This document shows positions 42,401 to 64,000 of a stretch of DNA of 64,000 nt, in pieces. The stretch covers positions 20,670,494 through 20,734,493 of the forward strand of contig NC_087082.1 in NCBI RefSeq assembly GCF_026151205.1. The letters are read 5' to 3'. The DNA comes from Bolinopsis microptera. Its lineage: Eukaryota; Ctenophora; Tentaculata; Lobata; Bolinopsidae. Numbering within the stretch: the stretch's first letter is position 1; every line of letters starts with the position of its first letter. A program made the position numbers and the translations under genes. The notes under the pieces are model-generated. The model ran no database searches. It was not told the DNA's origin and was given only the letters and a program-made list of their open reading frames with translations.

Positions 42401-45400
42401 TTAACCTTCAAATATAGTATTTTGGTGTGACCAAGCAACTGTCAATGTGTCGGTAGGAAAGATCACAGTGCACTTCAATACTGCTGGGTCTCCTGTTCTA
42501 ACATAATCATTGGTTGTACTGAAATAAGAAGTTGAATTCAATGGAAATTTAGGGAAATTGGAGTAGGTCAAAATTTAATACAACAATATGATATTGATTA
42601 TGATTGGTCAAATGGAGATTTCAGTTTAAGAACGTATTATTTAATTCTACGCATTCTTTCATTTGCGCAATATTAAATAAGATTTTTGAACTACATTATT
42701 AAACGTACCGAACTGTGAAGGTTTTGAGAGCCACCAAGGTATCATCATATTGATCTTTTTCTCCTACTGAAATCCTACATGTGAATAGTTGATCGCCTAA
42801 CAAAGTCACGTCAGCTAAAAGGATCATAGTAGACTCCTTCATCCCATCCATTAGTGCTCCATCGCTGATAAATTGAAAGAGTCGGTAATCCATGACAACA
42901 TCTACATTTGCAACAAATTATAAAACAGCAATATATCATATATCTGTATTAGGATCTCAAATATTCTATCATTTCAGTAATCGGTATTCGGTATATTCCA
43001 GTAATATAAAAGATTGACATATATGGCGTGCAGCTCTATAAAGAAAAATATAAAATATTACCTGACAGTCAAGTCAGAAATGTCTGAATCATGAGAGAAA
43101 AGTGTTCCTTTGTTGTCCACCCACTGAATATGTATCAAATTGGCAGCTGATCCTTTTATTGAACAAGTCAACGTTGATGCACTACCTGCTCGCACGTCAT
43201 AGCTTTTCACCATTATCTCTGAAATTAATACATCCAATATATATAACAATTTGCAGTTATTTAAAATACTACAATTTATAATTCATAATCCACTATGAAT
43301 GTTTAACTGCAAGTGCAAGATTCAAATTCGTCCTAAAATCAATAACTGTATTGAAAAATGAGTAATGACACTGTTTGGCATTTAAAGAACATACCATAAA
43401 CGTTAAGATTGACGGTGGTATCCGAGTGGCTGGAATCAGGTAAAAAACCGGAAGTTACTCTGCAAGTGTAAGCAGTATCTTCATTGACAAGAGTTCCGTC
43501 TACAGCAAGAGTTGATGTCTGTCTCCCTCCAGAGAAGCTTCCTTGGGCAGGGGTGAACTTTTCAGCTGGAACTGGTCCCGTACTAGTTCGCCAGGTTACT
43601 GTTGCTGTTTCAATAATTCCGATGATAACACAGGATATTGTTGTTGCAGAGCCTTTCTTTACTTCTTTGTTTACCGATTCAACGTCTGAAGTAAGTTTTG
43701 GTAATGGTACATTTACAAATTGTGCAATTATGGCTATCGTGTGATAATTGTATTTCATCGTGATAATATTGAGTTAAATTGAAAGTTGATTGTAATATAT
43801 AAAATCGTATACCTTACAAGACATTTTTGTGGCGGACCAATTTGCGACGACCGAAATTTTGGCGGTCCGAAAATATGGCGAAATTGAACGAAAACCGTCA
43901 CATTTCGGACGTCACAGAAAATAAGGGTATTTTTCATCATTTTTGATTTTGTTTTCTGACTCAAAGGAAATTCAAAATTTTCTAAAAATCGGTAAAATCA
44001 TGTTGAAACAAAATGAAACTTATAAATCGACTTCTTCATCTTCCTCTAAGGGGTCCGGCTCGACTCTTTCAGTTTCACTTATTGAGTTTGATATTAAATT
44101 GTTTATCTTGACTTAGTCTCTTATAAGACGTTTATGTTAGCACATAAATGTAATTTAAATTATAAATTTAAAACGTATTACTTGACATTAAATTCATCAT
44201 GGAATATTGTGTTTATTTGTCCCACCAGTTGGTAGACATCAGATCAGTATTTTCAAAACCATTTTGAGTGATTTAAATAAAAGAAATATTAATTTATGTA
44301 ATTTGACAGATTTGACAGAACTTCGACATATAGCCTCGAACAGAAACCATTGGAGAAATTTATTTAGTTTCTGATACTTTAATTTTTTGGGTTAAATATT
44401 TAAGTTTGTTTTCAGAGTTCTTCACGTAGACTTATCAGATCCTTAGGATGTTTTTATATTACTACTTCGGACTTGTGTAAAGTTTGATAATAATAATGTC
44501 CCACCATCATATCACTAACTTTTCAAGAACAAAATGAATCGATGAAGCCACAATTATTGGAATAAGCTAAAAATAATGCGACGGATTCTATTACGACGAC
44601 CGAAATTTTGGCGGTCCGAAAATATGGCGAAATTTCGGGAAAACCGTCGCATTTCGTACGTTATGAAAATGTCTTGTAAGGTAAATACAAAAAAACTACA
44701 TTGCAAAAGAACTTCAGTTGAATTTAAAGAACATACCATAAACGTTTAGATTGACGGTGGTATCCGAGTGGCTGGAATCAGGTAAAGATCCGGAAGTTAT
44801 TTTGCAAGTGTAGGCAGTATCTTCATTGACAAGAGTTCCGTCTACAGCAAGAGTTGATGTCTGTGTCCCTCCGGAGAAGCTTCCTTGGACAGGGGTGAAC
44901 TTTTCAGCTGGAAGTGGTCCCGTACTAGTCTGCCAAGTTACTGTTACTGTTTCAGTTATACCGATAATAACACAGGATATTGTTGTTGCAGAGCCTTTCT
45001 TTACTTCTTTGTTTACCGATTCAACGTCTGAAGTAAGTTTTGGTAATGGTACATTTACAAATTGTGCAATTTATAACGCTCACTTGATATAAACATGTTG
45101 CTGTTCTGATAATGATTTAAATTGAAAGTTGATTGTAAGATATAAAATCGTATAAATACAAAAAAATCCATTGCAAAAGAACTTCAGTTGGAGTTTAAAG
45201 AACATACCATAAACGTTAAGATTGACAGTGGTATCCGAGTGGCTGGAATCAGGTAAAGATCCGGAAGTTATTCTGCAAGTGTAGGCAGTATTTTCATTGA
45301 CAAGAGTTCCGTCTACAGCAAGAGTTGATGTCTGTGTCCCTCCGGAGAAGCTTCCTTGGACAGGGGTGAATTTTTCAGCTGGAACTGGTCCCGTACTAGT

Positions 45401-48400
45401 CCGCCAAGTTACTGTTGCTGTTTCAATAATTCCGATGATAACACAGGATATTGTTGTTGCAGAGCCTTTCTTTACTTCTTTGTTTACCGATTCAACGTCT
45501 GAAGTAAGTTTTGGTAATGGTACATTGACAAATTTTACAATTTATAACACTCGTGTGATAATTATCTTTAATGTTTGCATCAACCTGCCTGTGCAGCGGG
45601 CTGAGGATAACAAAGTGTTGTCACACGGGGCAGTGCTGCAGAGAACTGCCATCAGCTCTGGTCAGGATACAGTCGTCCTTGATACTGACTATGCAGATGA
45701 TTTGGCTATCATGGACAACACCAAGGACGGTCTCCAGGAGACGACTGATCTTTTATGCAAGTATGCGGCTCAGGCTGGCCTCAGAATCAATGCGAAGAAA
45801 ACAGAGGTTATGGCCATCGGCAAGAATACATCACAGAGGCCGTATACTGAAGCATCAACGGTGGACATTACAGTAGGAGACACGGCTATCCAGCAAGTCA
45901 GCAACTTCACTTACCTTGGGTCGATTATATCAAGTGATGGGACTATTGACCGGGACTTGTCTGCACGGATCCAGAAAGCCTCAGGAGCATTCAATCAGCT
46001 CGGTAATATTTGGAAGAATCGCAATATCCAAACTAACACCAAAATACGGATATATGTTGCAGCGGTTCTAACAATATTACTTTATGGAAGCGAATTCTGG
46101 AACACTACTTCAAAGCAACTACATCGCTTCGAAGTTTTTCATCAAAACTGTTTGAGGAGAATCCTTCGAATTAAGTGGTTCCACCGAACGAGCAATGTTC
46201 AAGTGTTGGAGCGGGCAAGAATAAACCCGGTTATAACCTACATCAGTGCCAACCGTCTTCGCTGGTTTGGACATGTTTCTAGAATGCCGGACACCAGGCT
46301 ACCAAAGTATCTATTGGAATGGACACCTGCTCACGGCCGAAGATCACGTGGGCGGCCAAGAAAGAATTGGCGAACCTGTGTCCTAGAAGACGCAGTTACA
46401 TTCACAGGAGATCCAGACATTGTATTTGATAAGGTCCGAGAGTCGGCAGGAAACCGAAAGCACTGTAGAGAGATGATACGACATAAGCGGCAATTCCTTG
46501 GTGCAGGCCACTCGAATGATTGAGGAGACTTATCAAGTATCAAGTATCAAGTAAAGTGATAATTATATTTCGTCGTCATGAAAATGATTTAAATTGAAAG
46601 TTGATTGTAATATATAAAATCGTATAAAAACAAAAAAACTGCATTGCAAAAGAACTTCAGTTGGAGTTTAAAGAACATACCATAAACGTTAAGATTGACG
46701 GTGGTATCCGAGTGGCTGGAATCAGGTAAAGATCCGGAAGTAACTCTGCAAGTGTAGGCAGTATCTTCATTGACAAGAGTTCCGTCAACAGCAAGAGTTG
46801 ATGTCTGTGTCCCTCCGGAGAAGCTTCCTTGGACAGGGGTGAACTTTTCAGCTGGAACTGGTCCCGTACTAGTCTGCCAAGTTACTGTTACTGTTTCAGT
46901 TATTCCGATGATAACACAGGATATTGTTGTTGCAGAGCCTTTCTTTACTTCTTTGTTTACCGATTCAACGTCTGAAGTAAGTTTTGGTAATGGTACATTG
47001 ACAAATTTTACAATTTATAACACTCGTGTGATAATTGTATTTCGTCGTGATGATATTGAGTTAAATTGAAAGTTAATTGTAATATATAAAATCGTATAAA
47101 AACAAAAAAACTGCATTGCAAAAGAACTTCAGTTGGAGTTTAAACTTTAAAGAACATACCATAAACGTTTAGATTGACGGTGGTATCCGAGTGGCTGGAA
47201 TTAGGTAAAGATCCGGAAGTTATTCTGCAAGTGTAGGCAGTATCTTCATTGACAAGAGTTCCGTCTACAGCAAGAGTTGATGTCTGTGTCCCTCCGGAGA
47301 AGCTTCCTTGGACAGGGGTGAACTTTTCAGCTGGAACTGGTCCCGTACTAGTCTGCCAAGTTACTGTTACTGTTTCAGTTATTCCGATGATAACACAGGA
47401 TATTGTTGTTGCAGAGCCTTTCTTTACTTCTTTGTTTACCGATTCAACGTCTGAAGTAAGTTTTGGTAATGGTACATTTACAAATTGTGCAATTTATAAC
47501 GCTCACTTGATATAAACATGTTGTTGTTCTGATAATGATTTAAATTGAAAGTTGATTGTAAGATATAAAATCGTATAATATCAAAAAACTGCATTGCGAA
47601 AAAATTTCTGTTGGAGTTTAAAGAACATACCATAAACATTAAGATTGACGGTGGTATCCGAGTGGCTGGAATCAGGTAAAGATCCGGAAGTTATTCTGCA
47701 AGTGTAGGCAGTATCTTCATTGACAAGAGTTCCGTCTACAGCAAGAGTTGATGTCTGTGTCCCTCCGGAGAAGCTTCCTTGGACAGGGGTGAACTTTTCA
47801 GCTGGAACTGGTCCCGTACTAGTCCACCAAGTTACTGTTGCTGTTTCAATAATTCCGATGATGACACAGGATATTGTTGTTGCAGAGCCTTTCTTTACTT
47901 CTTTGTTTACCGATTCAACGTCTGAAGTAAGTTTTGGTAATGGTACATTGTCAAATTTTACAATTTATAGCACTCGTGTGATAATTATATTTCGTCTTCA
48001 TGATAATGATTTAAATTGAAAGTTGATTGTGATATATAAAATCGTATAAAAACAAAAAAACTGCTTTGCAAAAGAACTTCAGTTGGAATTTATAGAACAT
48101 ACCATAAACGTTAAGATTGACAGTGGTATCCGAGTGGCTGGAATCAGGTAAAGATCCGGAAATTATTCTGCAAGTGTAGGCAGTATCTTCATTGACAAGA
48201 GTTCCGTCTACAGCAAGAGTTGATGTCTGTGTCCCTCCGGAGAAGCTTCCTTGGACAGGGGTGAACTTTTCAGCTGGAACTGGTCCCGTACTTGTCTGCC
48301 AAGTTACTGTTACTGTTTCAGTTATTCCGATGATAACACAGGATATTGTTGTTGCAGAGCCTTTCTTTACTTCTTTGTTTACCGATTCAACGTCTGAAGT

Positions 48401-51400
48401 AAGTTTTGGTAATGGTACATTGACAAATTTTACAATTTGTAACACTCGTGTGATAATTATATTTCGTCGTCATGAAAATGATTTAAATTGAAAGTTGATT
48501 GTAATATATAAAATCGTATACCTTACTCGGGAATATTATAACCGGGATAAAGTGGTGGGTTTTGGAAGATTCCGCCATATTTTCCCGGTCAAAAATTTTA
48601 CCAGTCATAAAAAAACCCGCCGACTCAGATTATGGGATTTCAAGGGGTGGTGGTCATCATATTTTACCTGAAGTCTCATATGTGCTAGAGAAGACTTTTG
48701 AAGCAGTGGATGGAGGGCTGTAACTTTATTGGCGGTTGCTACCATAATTTCGTTATAAAAATCACAATTTGGTTATAGAAATCAGATTTCAGGGTGGACC
48801 GTGATTCTCACTTCTCTTGCCCATGAATCAGTGAATTGTAGAGAAGAAAACAATTTATATGTTATAGAAGAAAACGAAATTAATAATAATATATAATATA
48901 TAGTATAATAACAATGTCTCTAAAGATTGATCGCTACTCGTGTGCAGTGTGTAGACTAAAGAAAGAGGGAGTTTTCCCGTTAAAGTAACTTGTGGCCACA
49001 TCCCGCTAGAAGTGAGTAAACTGTGCCACTATTTCATGGTCCACGGTGGATTGATTACTGAAGCAGTTGAAGACGCAAAGCCAAGACGTTCCCCAATACC
49101 AAGCGGTGGGCAGGAAATTAAGCTCCGGCTGACCTTCAGAGCAGTAGCCCCATTAGCGGACAAAATGAAAGTCTTGTTAAGACAACAATACAACTTCGAA
49201 TTTGACTGTCAGCAGCTCAGGGGGATATCAATAATGATAATGGCGGGGACATTAGCGATAATGAGAATGAGAATACGCTTTAATGAAGATTTGACTTATT
49301 ATTGCTTAGATTTATTTTCCTTTAAATAGACGTGTCTTTTTTTTCTATTTCTGAGTAATATCAATAACTGTAAATTGAAATAACTTCTCTAACAAGTAAC
49401 AAAAACAGAAATTTCGGTTGAACATTTGTTGACCTCTGAAAAAAACTTGAAAGGTCGTCCACCGGTAAATACATGACCGGGATAATTTAGCGGGTTTTGG
49501 GAAAGTTCGCCATATTTTCCCGGTCATTAATTTTCCCAGTCATAAATTAACCCGCTATAATATTCCCGAGTAAGGTAAATACAAAAAAACTGCATTGCAA
49601 AAGAACTTCAGTTGGAGTTTAAAGAACATACCATAAACGTTTAGATTGACGGTGGTATCCGAGTGGCTGGAATCAGGTAAAGATCCGGAAGTTATTCTGC
49701 AAGTGTAGGCAGTATCTTCATTGACAAGAGTTCCGTCAACAGCAAGAGTTGATGTCTGTGTCCCTCCGGAGAAGCTTCCTTGGACAGGGGTGAACTTTTC
49801 AGCTGGAACTGGTCCTGTACTAGTCCGCCAAGTTACTGTTGCTGTTTCGATAATTCCGATGATAACACAGGATATTGTTGTTGCAGAGCCTTTCTTTACT
49901 TCTTTGTTTACCGATTCAACGTCTGAAGTAAGTTTTGGTAATGGTACATTGACAAATTTTACAATTTATAACACTCGTGTGATAATTATATTTCGTCGTC
50001 ATGAAAATGATTTAAATTGAAAGTTGATTGTAATATATAAAATCGTATAAAAACAAAATAACTGCATTGCAAAAGAACTTCAGTTGGAGTTTAAAGAACA
50101 TACCATAAACGTTAAGATTGACAGTGGTATCCGAGTGGCTGGAATCAGGTAAAGATCCGGAAGTTATTCTGCAAGTGTAGGCAGTATCTTCATTGACAAG
50201 AGTTCCGTCTACAGAAAGAGTTGATGTCTGTGTCCCTCCGGAGAAGCTTCCTTGGACAGGGGTGAACTTTTCAGCAGGAACTGGTCCTGTACTAGTCTGC
50301 CAAGTTACTGTTGCTGTTTCAATAATTCCGATGATAACACAGGATATTGTTGTTGCAGAGCCTTTCTTTACTTTTTTGTTTACCGCTTCAACGTCTGAAG
50401 TAAGTTTTGGTATTGGTACATTGACAAATTTTACAATTTATAACACTCGTGTGATAATTATATTTCGTCGTCATGAAAATGATTTAAATTGAAAGTTGAT
50501 TGTAATATATAAAATCGTATAAAAACAAAATAACTGCATTGCAAAAGAACTTCAGTTGGAGTTAAAAGAACATACCATAAACGTTAAGATTGACAGTGGT
50601 ATCCGAGTGGCTGGAATCAGGTAAAGATCCGGAAGTTATTCTGCAAGTGTAGGCAGTATCTTCATTGACAAGAGTTCCGTCAACAGAAAGAGTTGATGTC
50701 TGTGTCCCTCCGGAGAAGCTTCCTTGGACAGGGGTGAACTTTTCAGCTGGAACTGGTCCTGTACTAGTCCGCCAAGTTACTGTTGCTGTTTCAATAATTC
50801 CGATGATAACACAAGATATTGTTGTTGCTGAGCCTTTCTTTACTTCTTTGTTTACCGATTCAACGTCTGAAGTAAGTTTTGGTAATGGTACATTGACAAA
50901 TTTTACAATTTATAACACTCGTGGGTTCTTTTGCGATAGTCAAAACGCGACAACTAGCGCTGGATGGCGACAACTAGCGCTATCCAGCGCTAGTTGTCGC
51001 CATCCAGCGCTAGTTGTCGCTATCCAGCGCTGGATAACGCTGGCCAGCGCAAAATATATATGTTCGATAATTGTCGCTATCCAGCGCTAGTTGTCGCCAT
51101 CCAGCGCTAGTTGTCGCCATCCAGCGCTAGTTGTCGCTATCCAGCGCTAGTTGTCGCTGGCTATGCGACACTGTCGCACGCGATAGTTTGCGATGGCCAG
51201 CGCAACTGGCCATCGCAGAAAACAGTTCGATAACTAGCGCTGGATAGCGACAACTAGCGCTGGATAGCGACAACTAGCGCTGGCCAGCGCTGGCCAGCGT
51301 TAAGCGATAGCCAGCGGTAACCAGCGCTAGCCAGCGCAATGTATCAAAATCATATACTTGCGATATTACTCGGATGACGATTAATCACTTTACACTTGAC

Positions 51401-54400
51401 TGTCACGTGCCTTTTTTAACCCATTCTCTGACTCTAGCTGGTTCTGAACGACTTTTCGAAACCCCAACCCTCTAATCTGATCCCAACCCTAACCCTAACC
51501 CAATCCTTAACAAAAACATAATATGCTGAAACCCTAACAATAACGAGAAATTAGACTAACTTCCTTATACGGTCATATCACGTGATCGATACATGTACAG
51601 TTTTTCGCCAATATCTCGTCAGGAGAGCATTTTAACCCTATGTCATGGGCTTATGGGGGTTGATTCGGAATTGAATTAGCGTCCGAAAATACATCGATTG
51701 AAGTTGGACACAACCATCGGGGGCCCTTTTAGTTTTAGAACAATTTCGAAGATCGACTGTAGAGTGATTTAGCACGCTCGATATTAGTATTACTCGTCAG
51801 CCAGCGCTGGCCAGCGCAATATAGTTGCGATATTACTCGTCAGCTAGCGCTGGCCAGCGCTGGCTAGCGCTGGCTAGCGCTGGCTAGCGCTGGCTAGCGC
51901 TGGTTAGCGCTGGTTAGCGCTAGCTGACGAGTAATAGCGCAAAAATTTTGCGCTGGATATCGATGGCCAGCGCTGGCTATCGCTTAGCGCTGGCCAGCGC
52001 TGGCCAGCGCTAGTTGTCGCTATCCAGCGCTAGTTGTCGCTATCCAGCGCTAGTTATCGAACTGTTTTCTGCGATGGCCAGTTGCGCTGGCCATCGCAAA
52101 CTATCGCGTGCGACAGTGTCGCATAGCCAGCGACAACTAGCGCTGGATAGCGACAACTAGCGCTGGATGGCGACAACTAGCGCTGGATGGCGACAACTAG
52201 CGCTGGATAGCGACAATTATCGAACATATATATTTTGCGCTGGCCAGCGTTATCCAGCGCTGGATAGCGACAACTAGCGCTGGATGGCGACAACTAGCGC
52301 TGGATAGCGCTAGTTGTCGCCATCCAGCGCTAGTTGTCGCGTTTTGACTATCGCAAAAGAACCCACTCGTGTGATAATTATATTTCGTCGTCATGAAAAT
52401 GATTTAAATTGAAAGTTGATTGTAATATATAAAATTGTATAAAAACAAAAAAACTGCATTGCCACAGAAGTTCAGTTGGAGTTTAAAGAACATACCATAA
52501 ACGTTAAGATTGACAGTGGTATCCGAGTGGCTGGAATCAGGTAAAGATCCGGAAGTTATTCTGCAAGTGTAGGCAGTATCTTCATTGACAAGAGTTCCGT
52601 CAACAGCAAGAGTTGATGTCTGTGTCCCTCCGGAGAAGATTCCTTGGACAGGGGTGAACTTTTCAGCTGGAACTGGTCCTGTACTAGTCCGCCAAGTTAC
52701 TGTTGCTGTTTCAATATTTCCGATGATAACACAGGATATTGTTGTTGCAGAGCCTTTCTTTACTTCTTTGTTTACCGATTCAACGTCTGAAGTAAGTTTT
52801 GGTAATGGTACATTGACAAATTTTACAATTTATAACACTCGTGTGATAATTATATTTCGTCGTCATGAAAATGATTTAAATTGAAAGTTGATTGTAATAT
52901 ATAAAATCGTATAAAAACAAAAAAACTGCATTGCAAAAGAAGTTCAGTTGGAGTTTAAAGAACATACCATAAACGTTAAGATTGACAGTGGTATCCGAGT
53001 GGCTGGAATCAGGTAAAGATCCGGAAGTTATTCTGCAAGTGTAGGCAGTATCTTCATTGACAAGAGTTCCGTCAACAGAAAGAGTTGATGTCTGTGTCCC
53101 TCCGGAGAAGCTTCCTTGGACAGGGGTGAACTTTTCAGCTGGAACTGGTCCCGTACTAGTCCGCCAAGTTACTGTTGCTGTTTCAATAATTCCGATGATA
53201 ACACAGGATATTGTTGTTGCAGAGCCTTTCTTTACTTCTTTGTTTACCGATTCAACGTCTGAAGTAAGTTTTGGTAATGGTACATTGACAAATTTTACAA
53301 TTTATAACACTCGTGTGATAATTATATTTCGTCGTCATGAAAATGATTTAAATTGAAAGTTGATTGTAATATATAAAATTGTATAAAAACAAAAAAACTG
53401 CATTGCAAAAGAAGTTCAGTTGGAGTTTAAAGAACATACCATAAACGTTAAGATTGACAGTGGTATCCGAGTGGCTGGAATCAGGTAAAGATCCGGAAGT
53501 TATTCTGCAAGTGTAGGCAGTATCTTCATTGACAAGAGTTCCGTCAACAGCAAGAGTTGATGTCTGTGTCCCTCCGGAGAAGCTTCCTTGGACAGGGGTG
53601 AACTTTTCAGCTGGAACTGGTATTGTACTAGTCCGCCAAGTTACTGTTGCTGTTTCAGTTATACCGATGATAACACAGGATATTGTTGTTGCAGAGCCTT
53701 TCTTTACTTCTTTGTTTACCGATTCAACGTCTGAAGTAAGTTTTGGTAATGGTACATTGACAAATTTTACAAATTATAACACTCGTGTGATAATTGTATT
53801 TTGTCGTGATGATAATGACTTAAATTGAAAGTTGATTGTAATATATAAAATCGTATAAAAACAAAAAAACTGCATTGCAAAAGAACTTCAGTTGAAGTTT
53901 AAAGAACATACCATAAACGTTAAGATTGACGGTGGTATCCGAGTGGCTGGAATCATGTAAAGAACCGGAAGTAACTCTGCAAGTGTAGGCAGTATCTTCA
54001 TTGACAAGAGTTCCGTCTACAGTTAAAGTTGATGTCTGTGTCCCTCCGGAGACGCTTCCTTGGACAGGGGTGAACTTTTCAGCTGGAACTGGTCCTGTAC
54101 TAGTCCGCCAAGTTACTGTTGCTGTTTCAATAATTCCGATGATAACACAGGATATTGTTGTTGCAGAGCCTTTCTTTACTTCTTTGTTTACCGATTCAAC
54201 GTCTGAAGTAAGTTTTGGTAAAGGTACATTTACGAATTGTGCAATTTATAACACTCGTGTGAAAATTATATTTCGTCGTGATGATAATGACTTAAATTAA
54301 AAGTTGATTGTAATATATAAAATCGTATAAATACAAAAAACTGCATTGCAAAAGAACTTCAGTTGGAGTTTCAAGAAAATACCATAAATGTTGAGATTGA

Positions 54401-57400
54401 CGGTGGTATCTGAGTGGCTGGAATCAGGTAAAGATCCGGAAGTTATTCTGCAAGTGTAGGCAGTATCTTCATTGACAAGAGTTCCATCTACAGTTAAAGT
54501 TGATGTCTGTGTCCCTCCGGAGACGCTTCCTTGGACAGGGGTGAACTTTTCAGCTGGAACTGGTCCCGTACTAGTCCGCCAAGTTACTGTTGCTGTTTCA
54601 ATAATTCCGATGATAACACAGGATATTGTTGTTGCAGAGCCTTTCTTTACTTCTTTGTTTACCGATTCAACGTCTGAAGTAAGTTTTGGTAATGGTAGAT
54701 TTACAAATTGTGTAATTATAATGCTCATGCTCGTGTGATAATTGTATTTTGTCGTGATGATAATGACTTAAATTGAAAGTTGATTGTAATATATAAAATC
54801 GTATAAAAACAAAAAAACTGCATTGCAAAAGAACTTCAGTTGGAGTTTAAAGAACATACCATAAACGTTAAGATTGACGGTGGTATCCGAGTGGCTGGAA
54901 TCAGGTAAAGAACCGGAAGTAACTCTGCAAGTGTAGGCAGTATCTTCATTGACAAGAGTTTCGTCTACAGTTAAAGTTGATGTCTGTGTCCCTCCGGAGA
55001 CGCTTCCTTGGACAGGGGTGAACTTTTCAGCTGGAACTGGTCCTGTACTAGTCCGCCAAGTTACTGTTGCTGTTTCAGTTATTCCGATGATAACACAGGA
55101 TATTGTTGTTGCAGAGCCTTTCTTTACTTCTTTGTTTAGTGATTCAACGTCTGTAGTAAGTTTTGATAATGGTACATTTACAAATTGTGCAATTATAATG
55201 CTCATTCTCATGTGATAATTGTATTTTGTCGTGATGATAATGCCTTAAATTGAAAGTTGATTGTAATATATAAAATCGTATAAAAACAAAAAAACTGCAT
55301 TGCAAAAGAACTTCAGTTGAAGTTTAAAGAACATACCATAAACGTTAAGATTGACGGTGGTATCCGAGTGGCTGGAATCAGGTAAAGAACCGGAAGTAAC
55401 TCTGCAAGTGTAGGCAGTGTCTTCATTGACAAGAGTTCCGTCTACAGTTAAAGTTGATGTCTGTGTCCCTCCGGAGAAGCTTCCTTGGACAGGGGTAAAT
55501 TGTTCAGCTGGAACTGGTCCCGTACTAGTCCGCCAAGTTACTGTTGCTGTTTCAACAATTCCGATGATAACACAGGATATTGTTGTTGCAGAGCCTTTCT
55601 TTACTTCTTTGTTTACCGATTCAACGTCTGAAGTAAGTTTTGGTAATGGTACATTGACAAATTTTACAATTATGACTCTCGTGTGATAATTGTATTTCGT
55701 CGTGATGATATTGAGTTAAATTAAAAGCTGATTGTAATATATAAAATCGTATAAATACAAAAAAACTACATTGCAAAGGAACTTCAGTTGGAATTTAAAG
55801 AACATACCATAAACGTTTAGATTGACGGTGGTATCCGAGTGGCTGGAATCAGGTAAAGATCCGGAAGTTATTCTGCAAGTGTAAGCAGTATCTTCATTGA
55901 CAAGAGTTCCGTCAACAGCAAGAGTTGATGTCTGTGTCCCTCCGGAGAAGCTTCCTTGGACAGGGGTGAACTTTTCAGCTGGAACTGGTCCTGTACTAGT
56001 CCGCCAAGTAACTGTTACTGTTTCAGTTATTCCGATGATAACACAGGATAATGTTGTTGCAGAGCTTTTCTTTACTTCTTTGTTTACCGATTCAACGTCT
56101 GAAGTAAGTTTTGGTAAAGGTTCATTTACAAATTGTGCAATTTATAACGCTAACTTGATATAAACATGTTGTTGTTCTGATAATGATTTAAATTGAAAGT
56201 TGATTGTAAGATATAAAATCGTATAATATCAAAAAACTGCATTGCGAAAAAATTTCAGTTGGAGTTTGAAGAACATACCATAAACATTAAGATTGACGGT
56301 GGTATCCGAGTGGCTGGAATCAGGTAAAGAACCGGAAGTTATTCTGCAAGTGTACGCAGTATCTTCATTGACAAGAGTTCCGTCTACAGCCAGAGTTGAT
56401 GTCTGTGTCCCTCCGGAGAAGCTTCCTTGGACAGGGGTGAACTTTTCAGCTGGAACTGGTCCCGTACTAGTCTGCCAAGTTACTGTAACTGTTTCAGTTA
56501 TTCCGATGATAACACAGGATATTGTTGTTGCAGAGCTTTTCTTTACTTCTTTGTTTACCGATTCAACGTCTGAAGTAAGTTTTGGTAAAGGTTCATTTAC
56601 AAATTGTGCAATTTATAACGCTCACTTGATATAAACATGTTGTTGTTTTGATAATGATTTAAATTGAAAGTTGATTGTAAGATATAAAATCGTATAATAT
56701 CAAAAAACTGCAATGCGAAAAAATTTCAGTTGGAGTTTAAAGAACATACCATACACATTAAGATTGACGGTGGTATCCGAGTGGCTGGAATCAGGTAAAG
56801 ATCCGGAAATTATTCTGCAAGTGTAAGCAGTATCTTCATTGACATGAGTTCCGTCAACAGCAAGTGTTGATGTCTGTGTCCCTCCGGAGAAATTTCCTTG
56901 GACAGGGGTGAACTTTTCAGCTGGAACTGGTCCTGTACTAGTCCGCCAAGTTACTGTTGCTGTTTCAATAATTCTGATGATAACACAGGATATTGTTGTT
57001 GCAGAGCCTTTCTTTACTTCCTTGTTTACCGATTCAACGTCTGAAGTAAGTTTTGGTTATGGTACATTGACAAATTTTACAATTTATAACACTCGTGTGA
57101 TAATTATATTTCGTGTTCATGATAATGATTTAAATTGAAAGTTGATCGCAATGCTGGCAAGCATTACCGTCGCCCTTATATTCACAATACTATTTACCCC
57201 CTATACTATTATATCCCCTTTATTGATTTCCAGGCATTAAGACTCATCGAAAGTAGTTCAGCAGGTACATTTAAGTTCAAAACATTCTAATTCAATGTTA
57301 AAGATGACAGGAATAAGAAATAGTTATATGGAGGTTTTTAAGAAATTTGTGCAAAATACGCGCCAGCATGTTATACGAAATTAGGTAAAAAAACCCAAGA

Positions 57401-60400
57401 TCGCCATATTCAGGTGCCTTAAAAACCATGTTAAAATTGAGTTAGAGATCTGAAACTTTGCAGGGCGTCTAGACCTTGTCCAAATCGACTGTAAAAAAAA
57501 TTTCATGTTTCAGGAGTATCGTGAAGTGGGTTTTCTGGAACCCCTGTTTTACAACAGATTGTCGTGAAGATACATATATAATAATATGTATAGACGCTTT
57601 TTGCAGTCAATTGTAGCCTACATTTAAGTGTCCGTAGATTCGAAAGTATAAACGATACAGTCATCTCGAACCTCAGGTTTTAAAGATAATCGTTTAAGCT
57701 TTAGTTTACATTGTATTGAAAAATAATTTAACGTCATCATCATCACTTGATGACGTCATCAAATTAAGTGTTTTAAAAACTTGATTTTTGACAAAGTAAC
57801 AACTTTTCAAATCGATTTTACAGCATTAAGGAGTAATTTTATTCAAAATCTGAGGACATTTTCATCTTAGATAATTGTTCAAGCATTCCGAAAATCTACC
57901 GGAATAGTTTCCTACCTTGCTCCTTCATAAAGATATTTGCTATTGAAGTTAGTGCTTTTTTGAAGAATAATTTTATAAAAACACAAAAGTTGTGAATTAG
58001 TATTCTCTGGTGTTGGGCTATCTGTTGGGTTGTGGAGCTCAATTTTACTTCTTAAAGGTCTAAATTGTGTTATAGGTTAGTTTTAAAGTTAACAAGAAAT
58101 GCGGCCGCTTTTCTTTTGTGGATGGCCGCTCAATTTCCCGATCCGTGATGGCGTATTTATCATATTCCATACAACCTGGGGACGGCCCAGTCTTTACTGT
58201 TTATATAAACATGCAAATATGGCGAAGTGACATGCCGACTGCCGAGCGCCGCCCAGTTAATATAATTCTATATTGAATTTGAAAATCGTGTATACTTCTA
58301 TGTAACCATATGTTTATTGTTTATGCAACCTGACACGGATCTGTGCAAAATAGTAATACCAACTCAAAATAATAATAATATGCTATTAATTAGTGCCTAG
58401 TGGGATACGTACATGATGAAATTAATAATGTACTTGGTTGGTTCAGCGCCGCGCGCCAACAATTATATAATTCAGATTGTCACGCAAAATAACTTTGCGC
58501 AGGTAGTCACGTGGGCGATAACAGTGCTCGCAGGCACGTTCGGTCGCACACTCGCGCGCACACACGGTCGCAAAGCTACCATATAAAAAAAACCTCGATC
58601 GCTAACCCTTGTCCTTGACTCTTTTGTGCCTTCGGCACTTTGAGTCATGGATCGGGAAAAAATCGAAAAGTTGCACACGTGGGGACACGCCCAAATTTAT
58701 TTAAAAAAGCTAAAATCACTAAAAATTTTGATTTTCACGATTTTTATCAACTTTGGAGTCCCGTTGTGATCAAAGTTCTTTTTGAAATCTTCTGAAACTT
58801 TGCATGCTTATCAAACTATATATTAAATACCACTATGCAAAAATTTACGGTGATTCAATATTGTATGCGCACGCAACGTCCGCTCAAAGTTTGCACGTGC
58901 GAAAGGTGAGAATTTTGCTCATTCGTGATTTCGAATATATTCTGCTTTACACGATATTTAAATGGCATTATATATGAATTTAATACCAACTTGAATGAGT
59001 AAAAAGTGCCATATTCAGTCGGTTATCGACAGATATACCTAACTAAACACAAGGAAACGTTTTCAAAGGCAGAATTTCGAAATCGTCGGAATTACCTCCT
59101 TGTTAATGAAGTTTCGATTGTGTAAATTATCCTGACATTATAATCAAAAAGAGATGATATTTGACCAAAACCCATAATCATGGGTAGAGTGTACCGCTGC
59201 CAGTGTCTCTCTTTTCCAAACAAAAGGAAATGATATTAATTTGAGGAACCGTCCGCTAATGCAAATTGATACCGAGAATGAAATCGGTCGCTCGCTTTTT
59301 CCATTCGATCACGGCTTACGAATTGTAATAAAGCTTATTGATTTGAAAAAGCGAGCGACCGATTTCATTCTCGGTATCAATTTGCATTAGCGGACGGTTC
59401 CTCAAATTAATATCATTTCCTTTTGTTTGGAAAAGAGAGACACTGGCAGCGGTACACTCTACCCATGATTATGGGTTTTGGTCAAATTGTAATATATAAA
59501 ATCGTATAAAAACAAATAAACTGCATTGCAAAAGAACTTCAGTCGGAGTTTAAAGAACATACCATAAACGTTAAGATTGACAGTGGTATCCGAGTGGCTG
59601 GAATCAGGTAAAGATCCGGAAGTTATTCTGCAAGTGTAGGCAGTATCTTCATTGACAAAAGTTCCGTCAACAGCAAGAGTTGATGTCTGTGTCCCTCCGG
59701 AGAAGCTTCCTTGGACAGGGGTGAACTTTTCAGCTGGAACTGGTCCTGTACTAGTCCGCCAAGTTACTGTTGCTGTTTCAATAATTCCGATGATAACACA
59801 GGATATTGTTGTTGCAGAGCCTTTCTTTACTTCTTTTTTTACCGATTCAACGTCTGAAGTAAGCTTTGGTAATGGTACATTTACAAATTGTGCAATTTAT
59901 AACGCTCACTTGATATAAACATGTTGTTGTTCTGATAATGATTTAAATTGAAAGATGATTGCAAGATATAAAATCGTATAATATCAAAAAACTGCATTGC
60001 GAAAATATTTCAGTTGGAGTTTAAAGAACATACCATAAACATTAAGATTGACGGTGGTATCCGAGTGGCTGGAATCAGGTAAAGATCCGGAAGTTATTCT
60101 GCAAGTGTAAGCAGTATCTTCATTGACAAGAGTTCCGTCTACAGCAAGAGTTGATGTCTGTGTCCCTCCGGAGAAGCTTCCTTGGACAGGGGTGAACTTT
60201 TCAGCTGGAACTGGTCCTGTACTAGTCCGCCAAGTTACTGTTGCTGTTTCAGTTATTCCGATGATAACACAGGATATTGTTGTTGCAGAGCCTTTCTTTA
60301 CTTCTTTGTTTACCGATTCAACGTCTGAAGTAAGTTTTGGTAATGGTACATTTACAAATTGTGCAATTTATAACGCTCACTTGATATAAACATGTTGTTG

Positions 60401-63400
60401 TTCTGATAATGATTTAAATTGAAAGTTGATTGTAAGATATAAAATCGTATAATATCAAAAAACTGCATTGCGAAAAAATTTCAGTTGGAGTTTAAAGAAC
60501 ATACCATAAACGTTCAGATTGACAGTGGTATCCGAGTGGCTGGAATCAGGTAAAGATCCGGAAGTTATTCTGCAAGTGTAGGCAGTATCTTCATTGACAA
60601 GAGTTCCGTCTACAGCAAGAGTTGATGTCTGTGTCCCTCCGGAGAAGCTTCCTTGGACAGGGGTGAACTTTTCAGCTGGAACTGGTCCTGTACTAGTCCG
60701 CCAAGTTACTGTTGCTGTTTCAATAATTCCGATGATAACACAGGATATTGTTGTTGCAGAGCTTTTCTTTACTTCTTTGTTTACAGATTGAACGTCTGAA
60801 GTAAGCTTTGGTAATGGTACATTTACAAATTGTGCAATTTATAACGCTCACTTGATATAAACATGTTGTTGTTCTGATAATGATTTAAATTGAAAGATGA
60901 TTGCAAGATATAAAATCGTATAATATCAAAAAACTGCATTGCGAAAATATTTCAGTTGGAGTTTAAAGAACATACCATAAACATTAAGATTGACGGTGGT
61001 ATCCGAGTGGCTGGAATCAGGTAAAGATCCGGAAGTTATTCTGCAAGTGTAAGCAGTATCTTCATTGACAAGAGTTCCGTCTACAGCAAGAGTTGATGTC
61101 TGTGTCCCTCCGGAGAAGCTTCCTTGGACAGGGGTGAACTTTTCAGCTGGAACTGGTCCTGTACTAGTCCGCCAAGTTACTGTTGCTGTTTCAATAATTC
61201 CGATGATAACACAGGATATTGTTGTTGCAGAGCCTTTCTTTACTTCTTTGTTTACCGATTCAACGTCTGAAGTAAGTTTTGGTAATGGTACATTTACAAA
61301 TCGTGCAATTATGGCTATTGTGTGATGATTGTATTTCATCGTGATAATATTGAGTTAAATTGAAAATTGATTGTAATATATAAAATCGTATAAACACAAA
61401 AAACCTACATTGCAAAAGAACTTCAGTTGGAGTTTAAAGAACATACCATAAACGTTCAGATTGACAGTGGTATCCGAGTGGCTGGAATCAGGTAAAGATC
61501 CGGAAGTTATTCTGCAAGTGTAGGCAGTATCTTCATTGACAAGAGTTCCGTCTACAGCAAGAGTTGATGTCTGTGTCCCTCCGGAGAAGCTTCCTTGGAC
61601 AGGGGTGAACTTTTCAGCTGGAACTGGTCCTGTACTAGTCCGCCAAGTTACTGTTGCTGTTTCGATAATTCCGATGATAACACAGGATATTGTTGTTGCA
61701 GAGCCTTTCTTTACTTCTTTCTTTACCGATTCAACGTCTGAAGTAAGTTTTGGTAATGGTACATTTACAAATTGTGCAATTTATAACGCTCACTTGATAT
61801 AAACATGTTGTTGTTCTGATAATGATTTAAATTGAAAGTTGATTGTAAGATATAAAATCGTATAATATCAAAAAACTGCATTGCGAAAAAATTTCAGTTG
61901 GAGTTTAAAGAACATACCATAAACGTTAAGATTGACAGTGGTATCCGAGTGGCTGGAATCAGGTAAAGATCCGGAAGTTATTCTGCAAGTGTAGGCAGTA
62001 TCTTCATTGACAAGAGTTCCGTCTACAGCAAGAGTTGATGTCTGTGTCCCTCCGGAGAAGCTTCCTTGGACAGGGGTGAACTTTTCAGCTGGAACTGGTC
62101 CTGTACTAGTCCGCCAAGTTACTGTTGCTGTTTCAATAATTCCGATGATAACACAGGATATTGTTGTTGCAGAGCCTTTCTTTACTTCTTTGTTTACCGA
62201 TTCAACGTCTGAAGTAAGTTTTGGTAATGGTACATTTACAAATCGTGCAATTATGGCTATTGTGTGATGATTGTATTTCATCGTGATAATATTGAGTTAA
62301 ATTGAAAATTGATTGTAATATATAAAATCGTATAAATACAAAAAAACTACATTGCAAAAGAACTTCAGTTGGAGTTTAAAAAACATACCATAAACGTTCA
62401 GATTGACAGTGGTATCCGAGTGGCTGGAATCAGGTAAAGATCCGGAAGTTATTCTGCAAGTGTAGGCAGTATCTTCATTGACAAGAGTTCCGTCTACAGC
62501 AAGAGTTGATGTCTGTGTCCCTCCGGAGAAGCTTCCTTGGACAGGGGTGAACTTTTCAGCTGGAACTGGTCCTGTACTAGTCCGCCAAGTTACTGTTGCT
62601 GTTTCAATAATTCCGATGATAACACAGGATATTGTTGTTGCAGAGCTTTTCTTTACTTCTTTGTTTACAGATTGAACGTCTGAAGTAAGCTTTGGTAATG
62701 GTACATTTACAAATTGTGCAATTTATAACGCTCACTTGATATAAACATGTTGTTGTTCTGATAATGATTTAAATTGAAAGATGATTGCAAGATATAAAAT
62801 CGTATAATATCAAAAAACTGCATTGCGAAAATATTTCAGTTGGAGTTTAAAGAACATACCATAAACATTAAGATTGACGGTGGTATCCGAGTGGCTGGAA
62901 TCAGGTAAAGATCCGGAAGTTATTCTGCAAGTGTAAGCAGTATCTTCATTGACAAGAGTTCCGTCTACAGCAAGAGTTGATGTCTGTGTCCCTCCGGAGA
63001 AGCTTCCTTGGACAGGGGTGAACTTTTCAGCTGGAACTGGTCCTGTACTAGTCCGCCAAGTTACTGTTGCTGTTTCAATAATTCCGATGATAACACAGGA
63101 TATTGTTGTTGCAGAGCCTTTCTTTACTTCTTTGTTTACCGATTCAACGTCTGAAGTAAGTTTTGGTAATGGTACATTTACAAATCGTGCAATTATGGCT
63201 ATTGTGTGATGATTGTATTTCATCGTGATAATATTGAGTTAAATTGAAAATTGATTGTAATATATAAAATCGTATAAATACAAAAAACCTACATTGCAAA
63301 AGAACTTCAGTTGGAGTTTAAAGAACATACCATAAACGTTCAGATTGACAGTGGTATCCGAGTGGCTGGAATCAGGTAAAGATCCGGAAGTTATTCTGCA

Positions 63401-64000
63401 AGTGTAGGCAGTATCTTCATTGACAAGAGTTCCGTCTACAGCAAGAGTTGATGTCTGTGTCCCTCCGGAGAAGCTTCCTTGGACAGGGGTGAACTTTTCA
63501 GCTGGAACTGGTCCTGTACTAGTCCGCCAAGTTACTGTTGCTGTTTCGATAATTCCGATGATAACACAGGATATTGTTGTTGCAGAGCCTTTCTTTACTT
63601 CTTTGTTTACCGATTCAACGTCTGAAGTAAGTTTTGGTAATGGTACATTTACAAATTGTGCAATTTATAACGCTCACTTGATATAAACATGTTGTTGTTC
63701 TGATAATGATTTAAATTGAAAGTTGATTGTAAGATATAAAATCGTATAATATCAAAAAACTGCATTGCGAAAAAATTTCAGTTGGAGTTTAAAGAACATA
63801 CCATAAACGTTAAGATTGACAGTGGTATCCGAGTGGCTGGAATCAGGTAAAGATCCGGAAGTTATTCTGCAAGTGTAGGCAGTATCTTCATTGACAAGAG
63901 TTCCGTCTACAGCAAGAGTTGATGTCTGTGTCCCTCCGGAGAAGCTTCCTTGGACAGGGGTGAACTTTTCAGCTGGAACTGGTCCTGTACTAGTCCGCCA
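25675..64000 (-). CDS. giant secreted multi-Ig-domain protein, 3' part (5' end beyond window)
   Basis: One minus-strand gene can be followed by phase. The Ig array exons (63802 down to 43395) are each phase 1-1. They continue into split Ig exons 43062-43218, 42709-42864, 42406-42518, 42136-42282 and 41613-41757. After an 11-kb Polinton the gene resumes at 30459 and ends with a TGA at 25675-25677. The exon 41613-41757 leaves phase 2 and the exon starting at 30459 enters phase 2, which supports continuity. Array domains show the Ig signature (ISC, VTW, DTAYTC). I see no transmembrane or anchor segment in the last exons, so the product should be secreted or matrix-bound. A role in adhesion, matrix or self/non-self recognition is possible but unproven. 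The N-terminus, signal peptide and full domain number lie outside. Confidence 0.8.
26233..27053. mobile_element. element capped by a 38-nt G-run and a 41-nt C-rich run, TTAA duplication
   Basis: The left end is 38 consecutive G, then TTCACCCTGATTTTTTTGTG. The right end is the inverted match (CACAAAAAAACTGA) followed by C31, A and C9. The TIR continues through GAAA..TT.GTTTCGAGATAG and TTGACC. TTAA flanks both sides (26229-26232, 27054-27057). It is inserted in the intron between Ig-gene exons 26058-26163 and 27261-27378. The proline-rich or glycine-rich ORFs here are products of the homopolymers. Confidence 0.8.
30581..30890 (+). repeat. left terminal inverted repeat of the Polinton
   Basis: Begins AGTAGTATGTCAGGG and runs to about CTCATTTAAT. 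It matches the reverse complement of the right TIR with a few substitutions and one extra ACGCTATACTTATC-like stretch near 30848. Confidence 0.9.
31235..31240 (+). promoter_or_regulatory. TATA-like box before the polymerase gene
   Basis: GTTATATACTAG lies about 115 bp before the ATG at 31353, with pyrimidine-rich sequence between. The other two ORFs of the element also have TATA boxes, which supports a shared promoter style. Confidence 0.4.
31353..38176 (+). pseudogene. Polinton DNA polymerase B with zinc fingers and OTU-like domain, intron-rich, LINE-interrupted
   Basis: Protein-primed-type family B DNA polymerase that would copy the element. Exons by GT..AG and phase: 31353-31538, 31718-31822, 31972-34126, 34311-34463, 34576-34656, 34782-34992, 35107-35747, 35894-35944, 36046-about 36128 and about 37153-37207 (split by a LINE), 37332-37488, 37602-37745, 37860-38176; about 1,440 codons. 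In order: Cys/His zinc-finger motifs (about 31510-32130), a domain shared with the ORF at 40670, an OTU-like cysteine-protease-like region (NDKLCFFRSL, later YGEHFSF), a C2H2 finger (CAKCDKIW..HFHRHVRNC), exonuclease motifs (ATYDIEC, FNGASYDL), then polymerase motif A (GYDANALYL) and the motif B and C regions, both cut by introns. The first exon has a hydrophobic stretch unexpected in a polymerase, so the start may be wrong. The LINE fragment breaks the motif B exon, hence the pseudogene call. Confidence 0.88.
36129..37152 (+). mobile_element. 5'-truncated LINE RT fragment inside the polymerase exon
   Basis: The 3' portion of a LINE RT ORF (EKDLGVITHSSLLWNEQIK, RPHLEYCVQLWNP, VQRRFTRLIDEVGTL), homologous to the fragment at 16545-20223. 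It ends in an ACTT microsatellite (about 37130-37152). The polymerase frame continues on both sides. The ORF is cut at 36533, where about 60 bp expected from the sister copy are missing and replaced by a palindromic filler. The exact 5' border and target duplication are unclear (possibly TCAA). Confidence 0.85.
38300..39394 (+). repeat. ACCCGTCATTAATAAT minisatellite, 1.1 kb
   Basis: More than 60 copies of a 15-18-bp unit, ACCCGTCATTAATAAT plus 0-2 extra AAT triplets, with scattered point changes. It fills the space between the polymerase stop and the next promoter of the Polinton. No ORF. Confidence 0.95.
39468..39475 (+). promoter_or_regulatory. TATA box before the zinc-finger ORF
   Basis: TATATAAG stands 58 bp before the ATG at 39526, directly after the minisatellite. 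Confidence 0.55.
39526..40572 (+). CDS. Polinton C2H2 zinc-finger / coiled-coil protein of unknown function
   Basis: Intact single-exon ORF of 348 aa, counting from the ATG at 39526 (a TTG lies two codons upstream). Residues about 6-30 form one C2H2 finger (YSCDSCGRQY..SLRTHRYSYH). The middle (about 85-250) is rich in Leu/Asp/Glu/Lys heptad-like stretches, probably coiled coil. The last 70 residues are very acidic and serine-rich (SDTDDNNSMTDQSESE). It has its own TATA box and is followed at 40579 by AATAAA. It matches none of the usual Polinton products I can recognise. A DNA-binding scaffold, regulator or terminal-protein-like role would be a guess. Confidence 0.75.
   Translation: MSSKSYSCDSCGRQYKNSKSLRTHRYSYHRTQKDSRNIDKVYSLPNDSVSLDYEYGTDYATKNKLPAANEFTTDGLGYDYLQDKVTDIVLMKADLNILQSTVDELDRLVRNLSEEMKSNDSVSNKTHFVRYEDSILPSNELRILKLTVESNKNDIRDIQDTMDNTVDQNVGQEVDVDLNELAAEDLIDGMIEIRNSFVENDIDEVTADIPKLRNVLKLILKTVDLSKLSEEEFQLLNEISNASKLTAKAMIHENFNHLVNMFDRMKTDLDELFEPSDSEKQEIKSVNEEEKSDTDDNNSMTDQSESETASDKEEEQYSSDSNISEIDPSELESTLDTHSISQCEDQSD
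40608..40614 (+). promoter_or_regulatory. TATA box before the small Polinton ORF
   Basis: ACTATAAAAGC lies 56-62 bp before the ATG at 40670, the same spacing as for the neighbouring ORF. Confidence 0.55.
40670..41122 (+). CDS. stand-alone homologue of the polymerase N-terminal domain
   Basis: Intact 150-aa ORF with its own TATA box. Residues about 50-148 align by eye with the element's own polymerase region coded at about 32340-32615: VAFGFILKDRTTDELKFF against ISLGAILFNKTTEEYAFY, and RPSTKWTVERI against RPNSQWTIAKV, each followed by an aromatic strand ending FDIYKFK or FFVYKL. The zinc fingers, OTU-like region, exonuclease and polymerase parts are absent. It may be a duplicated domain used as a separate subunit, decoy or DNA-binding factor. 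The function of the domain itself is unknown. It ends about 185 bp before the right TIR. Confidence 0.75.
   Translation: MDRSTLAQIPRKYQDIYKRSWNTIKTNVRQGRLKDVYHFPILTMDNSAILRKAEEVVAKYNEKFKVNVAFGFILKDRTTDELKFFHPSNNTMLFTLPRLLETPSDYKQFVEDIEQQDAFDYARLHRPSTKWTVERIVCVRFDIYKFKLRR
41308..41607 (-). repeat. right terminal inverted repeat of the Polinton
   Basis: Ends GTCCCTGACATACTACT. It is the inverted counterpart of 30581-30890. The adjacent AATACC (41608-41613) is the target duplication and includes the last base of an Ig-gene exon. Confidence 0.9.
41613..43218 (-). CDS. split Ig-domain exons of the giant Ig gene
   Basis: Five exons next to the array: 43062-43218 and 42709-42864 form one Ig domain (LTCSIKG, IQWVDNK, then QLFTCRIS). 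42406-42518 and 42136-42282 form a second (LKCTVIF, VAWSHQN, then ASYTCIVF). 41613-41757 is the first half of a third (ATVNLKSLYFF, HFWWKHND). Each domain is cut after the Trp strand, unlike the array exons, which hold a whole domain. Phases run 1, 2, 2, 1, 1, 2 and are consistent. The domains are strongly diverged from the array and from each other. Confidence 0.8.
43812..44681. mobile_element. 870-bp TA-flanked element with CCTTAC ends and subterminal direct repeats
   Basis: TIR CCTTACAAGACATTTT at the left, AAAATGTCTTGTAAGG at the right, and TA on both sides (43810-43811, 44682-44683). Inside each end is a block of about 75 bp in the same orientation (CGACGACCGAAATTTTGGCG ... ATATGGCGAAATT). 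No ORF of note. It lies in an array intron. Confidence 0.85.
45566..46555 (+). mobile_element. 5'-truncated LINE (RT C-terminus), 11-bp target duplication
   Basis: 990-bp insert in the intron between the third and fourth array exons. It encodes the RT 3' half (YADDLAIMDNT, FTYLGSIISSDG, LLYGSEFWN, RLRWFGHVSRM, GRPRKNWR), the style of RTE/Bov-B-like or related LINEs. The frame is open to a stop near 46522. It ends in repeats of TATCAAG and is flanked by GTGATAATTAT (45555-45565 and 46556-46566). Open frame, tail and clean duplication make it young. Confidence 0.9.
48521..49575. mobile_element. 1.06-kb TA-flanked element with CCTTAC ends and subterminal direct repeats
   Basis: TIR CCTTACTCGGGAATATTATA at the left and TATAATATTCCCGAGTAAGG at the right, with TA on each side (48519-48520, 49576-49577). 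A block of about 75 bp (GCGGGTTTTGGGAAAGTTCG, CCATATTTTCCCGGTCA) recurs in the same orientation at both ends. It shares the CGCCATATTTTC core with the element at 43812. It contains a possible broken zinc-finger ORF (48914-49329). Confidence 0.85.
48914..49329 (+). pseudogene. possible small zinc-binding ORF inside the TA-flanked element
   Basis: From the ATG at 48914 the frame reads RYSCAVCRLKKEG, stops after about 24 codons, then continues one nt out of phase as VTCGHIPLEVSKLC to a stop at 49329. The spacing Cys-x2-Cys ... Cys-x-His ... Cys is RING-like but incomplete. It may be a decayed accessory gene of the element or coincidence. Confidence 0.3.
50923..52364. mobile_element. 1.44-kb foldback element made of AGCGCTGG / GCGACAACT words
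   Basis: The ends GGGTTCTTTTGCGATAGTC and GACTATCGCAAAAGAACCC are perfect inverted repeats. About 380 bp on each side consist of reiterated GCGACAACTAGCGCTGGAT words. The centre (about 51330-51790) is unique AT-rich DNA with a short CCCTAA run. The target ACTCGT is duplicated (50917-50922, 52365-52370). It interrupts an array intron right after the exon at 50576-50866. No transposase. Confidence 0.9.
57147..59485. mobile_element. compound 2.3-kb insert in an Ig-array intron
   Basis: The array intron is interrupted after GAAAGTTGAT at 57146 and resumes at ATTGTAATAT around 59486. The insert holds unidentified AT-rich DNA, a copy of repeat C (58174-58258), and at its right end a perfect hairpin (59159-59487). 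No TIR common to both ends was found, so more than one insertion is likely. Confidence 0.7.
59159..59487. repeat. perfect 143-bp inverted repeat with 43-bp loop
   Basis: 59159-59301 and 59345-59487 are exact reverse complements by eye, starting ATTTGACCAAAACCC. The loop is 59302-59344. This is probably a hairpin MITE nested at the end of the compound insert. Confidence 0.93.

Follow-up and report, generated by a model that had tools for sequence, protein, structure and literature searches.

Fifty-one near-identical immunoglobulin exons form the middle of a predicted giant protein gene with a lectin-like head in the ctenophore Bolinopsis microptera

Long runs of immunoglobulin (Ig) domains are found in giant multi-Ig proteins such as titin/connectin and hemicentin. 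Lectin-like domains joined to Ig domains, and diversified, are described for the snail FREPs in the accessible part of PMC7588048; positive selection together with recombination is described for the F-type lectin of oysters, bindin, in that of PMC5712786; and tandemly duplicated Ig exons are described for Dscam in that of PMC3236188. Lectin-plus-Ig proteins, diversified F-lectins and giant Ig proteins are thus already known, and each bears some likeness to the locus reported here. This locus lies in a 64,000-nucleotide stretch of the B. microptera genome (assembly GCF_026151205.1, contig NC_087082.1, here C11:20670494-20734493; hereafter the window) and in the sequence directly beyond its end. 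It holds a tandem array of Ig exons placed between a lectin-like head and a long C-terminal module, and the array is, with moderate confidence, the stalk of a giant, probably secreted, lectin-headed protein that would act as an adhesin or a recognition tether.

The repeated exons are the middle section of one larger gene model, predicted to be intact from homology, reading frame and splice sites. The model has 70 exons that splice to 17,706 bp and give 5,901 codons in a single frame closed by its only stop; every acceptor is AG and every donor GT, apart from a single GC donor. From its 5' end it encodes a start resembling a signal peptide, a head contained in one exon, the Ig domains of the 51 array exons and an Ig-type C-terminus of about 784 residues. 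Positions past the window end are given in extended coordinates, which carry the window numbering onward. On this scale the array is bounded 5' by a module at about 75 kb and 3' by a module running from 43,218 down to 25,675; the array lies on the minus strand, which corrects the first-pass annotation. The 5' module is common to four genes and consists of a 52-bp signal-peptide-like exon, identical in all four, followed by a 459-bp head exon of phase 1-1. The 17 exons of the 3' module are colinear with residues 545-1319 of an intronless gene on contig C3 (L028; L-numbers denote fetched genome loci) up to a homologous stop. A C-terminus soon after exon 57 was considered and dropped, because this C3 relative shows the gene continuing across an 11-kb insertion.

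The first-pass annotation had described a tandem Ig exon array with a 471-bp unit that continues past the window, and the larger region bears this out: there are 51 consecutive exons between extended coordinates 43,395 and 74,554 (end C11:20745047), of which 29 lie wholly within the window and 22 run from the exon cut by the window end up to that point, with a period mostly of 470-472 bp and at most about 480 bp. Every exon has exactly 291 bp between AG and GT, is open and is of phase 1-1 (29/29 in the window, 51/51 overall), so that the phase symmetry noted earlier holds throughout. The invariant Ig residues claimed at the same time stood in part: Cys19, Trp32 and Cys75, the two cysteines and core tryptophan of the Ig superfamily, are present in 51 of 51 exons, but DTAYTC, thought to be in every exon, occurs in 28 of the 29 complete window exons, the remaining one having NTAYTC. 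Most introns (44 of 50) measure 180-188 bp, whereas six, five of them inside the window, measure 738-2,522 bp; exon length is unchanged throughout, in agreement with the earlier view that introns take insertions and exons do not. If the six long introns stem from inserts placed independently and at random, the probability that none falls in an exon is about 0.003. A profile check against Ig families, as had been proposed, placed one array unit over the Pfam cut-offs of both C1-set (26.6 bits, cut-off 21) and I-set (24.3 bits, cut-off 23.7); a PDB search with an Ig pair as query gave no match at 1e-6. By profile and core residues, the array exons belong to the immunoglobulin superfamily.

Divergence among the 51 units is concentrated outside the coding sequence, with a mean pairwise difference of 3.1% in exons vs 10.1% in the 44 ordinary introns, and within exons it follows the codon (2.35, 1.55 and 5.34% at positions 1, 2 and 3). 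The 51 exons encode 35 distinct proteins, and the ratio of nonsynonymous to synonymous differences (pN/pS) is 0.27 for the array (bootstrap 0.16-0.47) and 0.22 between array consensuses. When ten array groups were treated separately, leaving out the open exons of L011, L018 and a gene at 20.805 Mb, eight gave pN/pS of 0.27-0.47. On their near-identity and constraint, the Ig exons were rejected as the source of diversity, and the diversity-based recognition put forward as an inference in the first-pass annotation does not suit them; the diversity sits in the head exon, outside the window. The arrays are also similar across distance. Exons of the window array (W) differ by 0.026-0.032 from blocks at 17.41 Mb, more than 3 Mb away, and by 0.031 within W. 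Edge exons give a mixed picture between last and first positions: the final exon of W differs by 0.3% from its counterpart at 17.41 Mb and by 1.4% from that at 17.356 Mb, but by 4.8% on average from its own array; it also differs by 4.8% from the exon used as the last one of the 20.805 Mb gene, where the actual final exon, which contains a stop, was left aside. First exons of the genes differ by 2.4-5.5%, that of W differs from its own array by 4.4%, and first exons are thus no closer across genes. The homogenised interiors would be explained by unequal crossing over with conversion or by recent segmental duplication, between which the data do not separate.

The head exon behaves differently. 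The four genes (six pairs) are identical in exon 1 (0%); on average they differ by 4.1% in intron 1, by 9.8% in the head exon, by 7.6% in intron 2 and by 4.0% in the first Ig exon. The head exon therefore diverges faster than its own introns, which argues against a purely structural part. Its variation is greatest in loops; three of them, set with the F-lectin alignment in mind, lie in, or directly after, the stretch aligning with the F-lectin binding-loop region, and loop lengths vary by whole codons. In nine of the 11 head loci on C11 (g18148, which is truncated, and g19048, which misfits the pattern at 59% identity, were excluded), the loops have pN 0.28 and pS 0.20, vs pN 0.094 and pS 0.073 for the rest, which still includes two further variable stretches. 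In four single head pairs, loop pN is 0.21-0.30 vs a total pS of 0.069-0.091. The head exons of L033 and L034 have loops 3 and 4 in common, differ in loops 1 and 2 and differ slightly in loop 5, as if loops had been exchanged between genes. Thus, with the Ig exons near-identical and constrained and the head evolving fast, diversity would reside in the head, and the array would be a homogenised spacer.

To characterize the head, a profile built from 27 members was searched against PDB. It matched the Sm-hPAF lectin domain (2.4e-4, 3.0e-4), which we take to be an F-type lectin, as well as FBP32 (3.4e-3), glucanase modules (0.026) and lectin 1k12 (0.18), presumably eel agglutinin. The conserved half of the head aligns with the F-lectin segment that holds the first binding loops. 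In Pfam, at a threshold of 0.01, PF22633 matches five of the 27 heads (best 2.8e-5) and PF00754 one; two heads scanned singly against F5/8 type C models reached 14-15 bits, under the cut-off. The head thus resembles the F5/8C and F-lectin-like group and, by that resemblance, is predicted to be a jelly roll. F-type lectin was rejected as a family label, because neither the fucose motif nor the cation motif occurs in any of the 27 heads.

Genome searches covered 264.65 Mb in 232 contigs. A 32-base exon signature, allowing two mismatches or fewer, was found at 337 places, and the backward control at 0. Among the 150 candidates scored of 792, matches to the array exon lie on C2, C4, C7, C11 and C13. 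After 17 partial matches of 247 were left out, 209 of the 230 full-length array exons in the fetched stretches have 291 bp and are open. With 150 of 210 candidates scored, the head domain was located at no fewer than 128 sites, many on contigs without a listed Ig array; C-terminal exon 55 was located at 19 sites, of which one contains a stop. In the genes that share both ends, the Ig exons number 5 (17.356 Mb), 39 (17.41-17.45 Mb), 22 (20.805 Mb) and, in the window gene, 51; the count of 39 includes two exons split by locus borders and treats three blocks as one gene, as no 5' or 3' module lies between them. Intronless relatives at 21.0-21.15 Mb on C3 (L028:2364-6323 and L029:2043-5372) have the same C-terminal module to the same end, with pN/pS of 0.34 between them in that module. 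Their heads are a Kringle and four TSP1 domains in L028 and one TSP1 domain in L029, and neither open reading frame (ORF) holds an Ig array.

Two irregularities were seen within the family. At L019:1574-4059 and extended 137879-144816, short indels cluster in otherwise conserved exons, probably reflecting unpolished long-read sequence in repeats. On C13 (L023:6442-9175), Ig exons form a mirror image centred on position 7920, and the paired copies encode identical proteins, which points to an inverted duplication or an assembly fold-back.

Under the explanation we prefer, the protein would leave the cell, the C-terminal module would anchor or assemble it, the Ig rod would set reach and valency, and the variable head would bind a glycan or other surface ligand. 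Unequal crossing over of phase-neutral exon units could alter stalk length and leave the frame intact, and the gene family would supply a set of adhesive or recognition tethers differing in specificity and length. A bolder version, which we regard as unlikely, is a ctenophore variable-recognition family: secreted tapes in which head loops are diversified and swapped between paralogues and stalk length is set by the number of interchangeable Ig exons, which would fill, in a sister group of other animals, a role like that of FREPs or antibodies.

Several observations weigh against the stalk-and-head explanation. Splicing, site of expression, secretion and ligand are all inferred for this gene. 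In a plain hydropathy scan, values over 1.6 occur in the signal peptide (1.89), in one Ig unit (1.95) and, some 285 residues short of the C-terminal end, in a further stretch (1.67); neither of the latter two was taken as a membrane span, and the protein was read as secreted. In PDB the head profile nominally matches adiponectin best (4.2e-5), probably spuriously, through three repeats of 7.6 bits each; head member 1, taken alone, has no Pfam match at 0.01. Neither the F-type lectin fucose motif, HX24RXDX4(R/K) as printed in the accessible part of PMC5712786, nor the cation motif h2DGx was found in the 27 heads (0/27 each). Head selection is borderline, with pN/pS of 1.34 across nine genes (36 non-independent pairs; bootstrap 0.99-1.87, 3.2% at or below 1), and the ratio is alike in loops (1.35) and rest (1.28), pS being high in the loops too. 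This high loop pS suggests gene conversion or local recombination, that is, exchange of diverged segments, besides point selection. Two of the ten array groups, both with wide intervals, are without clear constraint (C4_4.79, 0.81, interval 0.35-2.34; C13, 1.18, 0.60-3.64). In the 20.805 Mb gene (extended 135,048-145,295), only seven of 22 Ig exons have 291 bp and six are also open; its short scattered indels could be decay instead of read error.

Among the alternatives, the one that survives best, though we consider it improbable, is a structural protein of matrix or gel, in which the Ig array would form a tape that gives elasticity or fills space in mesoglea or mucus, the head would be a docking domain and the head variation of little meaning. 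The giant multi-Ig layout, the strong constraint and homogenisation of the repeats and their varying number are all consistent with it. A docking domain would be expected to be conserved, however, and of all parts compared none changes faster than the head exon, which outpaces its introns and varies in loop length in frame.

Sequence alone leaves several settings for the protein (defence, prey adhesion, gametes or matrix); adhesion or matrix roles would suit the architecture. A prey-capture adhesive of colloblasts or mucus, with variable heads for prey surfaces and Ig rods as a tough tether, would have the same anatomy as our preferred explanation, and we judge it rather unlikely. The C3 relatives, which bear Kringle and/or TSP1 heads on the same C-terminus, are in its favour. 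According to the accessible part of PMC6278862, PF13927, an Ig domain, is one of three domains common only to a toxin database and colloblast candidate genes, but the colloblast candidates are also described there as lacking similarity to other biological adhesives. A gamete recognition protein comparable to the F-lectins of oyster bindin is more doubtful. The F-lectin-like loops are variable, and the accessible part of PMC5712786 places positive selection around the binding pocket of bindin, but the fucose motif is absent from the 27 heads, and bindin repeats the lectin and has no Ig stalk.

An alternative exon cassette of the Dscam type, in which recognition would be diversified by selecting a single exon or a small number for each transcript, would account for the phase-symmetric whole-domain tandem exons and their near-identical splice sites. 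We consider it very unlikely, since the exons vary little and are under constraint (35 distinct proteins from 51 exons, pN/pS 0.27), the 5-exon paralogue keeps both ends and the hydropathy scan gives no clear membrane span. Hardly credible is a non-functional satellite-like repeat, decaying pseudogene or assembly artefact, to which the many short indels in exons at 20.805 Mb and L019 and the C13 mirror-image stretch might point, but which exon constraint, codon-periodic divergence and a 5,901-codon frame over 70 exons contradict in the window gene, the latter two ruling out satellite DNA or a pseudogene there.

If the preferred explanation, an Ig stalk carrying a variable lectin-like head, is true, a lineage that diverged at or close to the animal base has its own combination of these parts, which may serve recognition or adhesion in one of the earliest branches of the animals. 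Two evolutionary modes, concerted evolution of the spacer and rapid change of the head, would be at work in one gene, and genes with 5, 22, 39 and 51 domains would offer a natural series for stalk-length effects.

Features of the gene within the window are given in the table. The 11-kb insertion after exon 58 has terminal inverted repeats of 250 bp, 99% complementary, and a 6-bp flanking duplication read by eye, whose duplicated bases preserve the GT donor of exon 58. Its near-identical ends suggest that it is young. The Polinton/Maverick-like label was assigned from ends and size; a scan of six of its ORFs, including for family B DNA polymerase and retroviral-type integrase, gave no model over cut-off. 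It contains a minisatellite at 38308-39373 with units of about 19 and 41 bp.

Features of the predicted gene and of the insertion in the window (window coordinates)
Feature	Position	Strand	Remark
Ig exon array	43395..64000	-	29 complete exons and one cut by window end; 51 in all, to C11:20745047
Ig exon cut by window end	63802..64000	-	63802-64092 extended
Long array intron	57041..59562	-	2,522 bp
Long array intron	50867..52495	-	1,629 bp; short tandem repeats inside
Long array intron	48394..49631	-	1,238 bp
Long array intron	45499..46680	-	1,182 bp; contains reverse transcriptase (RT)/DUF6451 fragment on + strand
Long array intron	43686..44736	-	1,051 bp
Last (3'-most) Ig array exon	43395..43685	-	
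Exon 54	43062..43218	-	Start of C-terminal module (Ig half)
Exon 55	42709..42864	-	C-terminal module (Ig half)
Exon 56	42406..42518	-	C-terminal module
Exon 57	42136..42282	-	C-terminal module
Exon 58	41613..41757	-	5' splice site a few bases from 11-kb insertion
Polinton/Maverick-like insertion	30581..41607	.	11 kb, in intron after exon 58; terminal inverted repeats and flanking duplication
Exon 59	30362..30459	-	
Exon 60	30076..30229	-	
Exon 61	29668..29849	-	
Exon 62	29360..29520	-	
Exon 63	29165..29244	-	
Exon 64	28815..28945	-	GC donor; weak match to C3 relative (E 0.67)
Exon 65	28359..28472	-	
Exon 66	28101..28238	-	
Exon 67	27679..27855	-	
Exon 68	27261..27378	-	
Exon 69	26058..26163	-	
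Exon 70	25675..25851	-	Stop codon; last residues match end of intronless C3 relatives

Elsewhere in the window, an ORF at 10026-10946, which matches first a 2OG-Fe(II) oxygenase model and then, weakly, a GDSL lipase model, lies near an endonuclease/reverse transcriptase ORF (12430-14685). The minus strand encodes ribosomal protein L21 at 8403-8909 and an RRM ORF at 3932-5080, the latter flanked on both sides by minus-strand Gly/Pro/Met-rich ORFs, and a 70-bp unit is repeated six times at 6868-7287 with copies 99% alike. In the genome at large, glutamate receptor ligand-binding matches were seen at 32 places, many in long open frames. In PDB, the ionotropic glutamate receptor (iGluR) ML032222a, which from its prefix we take to be from Mnemiopsis leidyi, was best for two glutamate receptors of this genome (E 1.2e-61 and 9.7e-121), and kainate receptors were top for two others (among the best 60). 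A search of the genome for COX1 gave no match.

None of the open-licence papers that our searches listed appeared to treat a lectin-like head combined with a near-identical 51-unit stalk and a range of 5 to 51 units among paralogues. The locus compares with described systems as follows. The head profile aligns over about its first half with the F-type lectins (eel agglutinin, striped bass FBP32 and oyster bindin), the three variable loops falling in or just after that part; unlike those lectins, the heads here are without the fucose and cation motifs and are fused to a giant Ig stalk. Scans of two heads, two array units and the C-terminus gave no match to fibrinogen, kinase, FN3, vWA or EGF models. 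FREPs are defined by a fibrinogen-like domain with one or two Ig domains, whereas here the head precedes 5 to 51. The exon alternatives of Dscam are spliced in a mutually exclusive manner, whereas the array copies here are homogenised and constrained. The C3 relatives have the same C-terminal module but, unlike the window gene, are each one long ORF with Kringle or TSP1 heads and no Ig array. Finally, the long runs of Ig domains recall titin/connectin and hemicentin, but the units of this array look far more alike than those of either protein.
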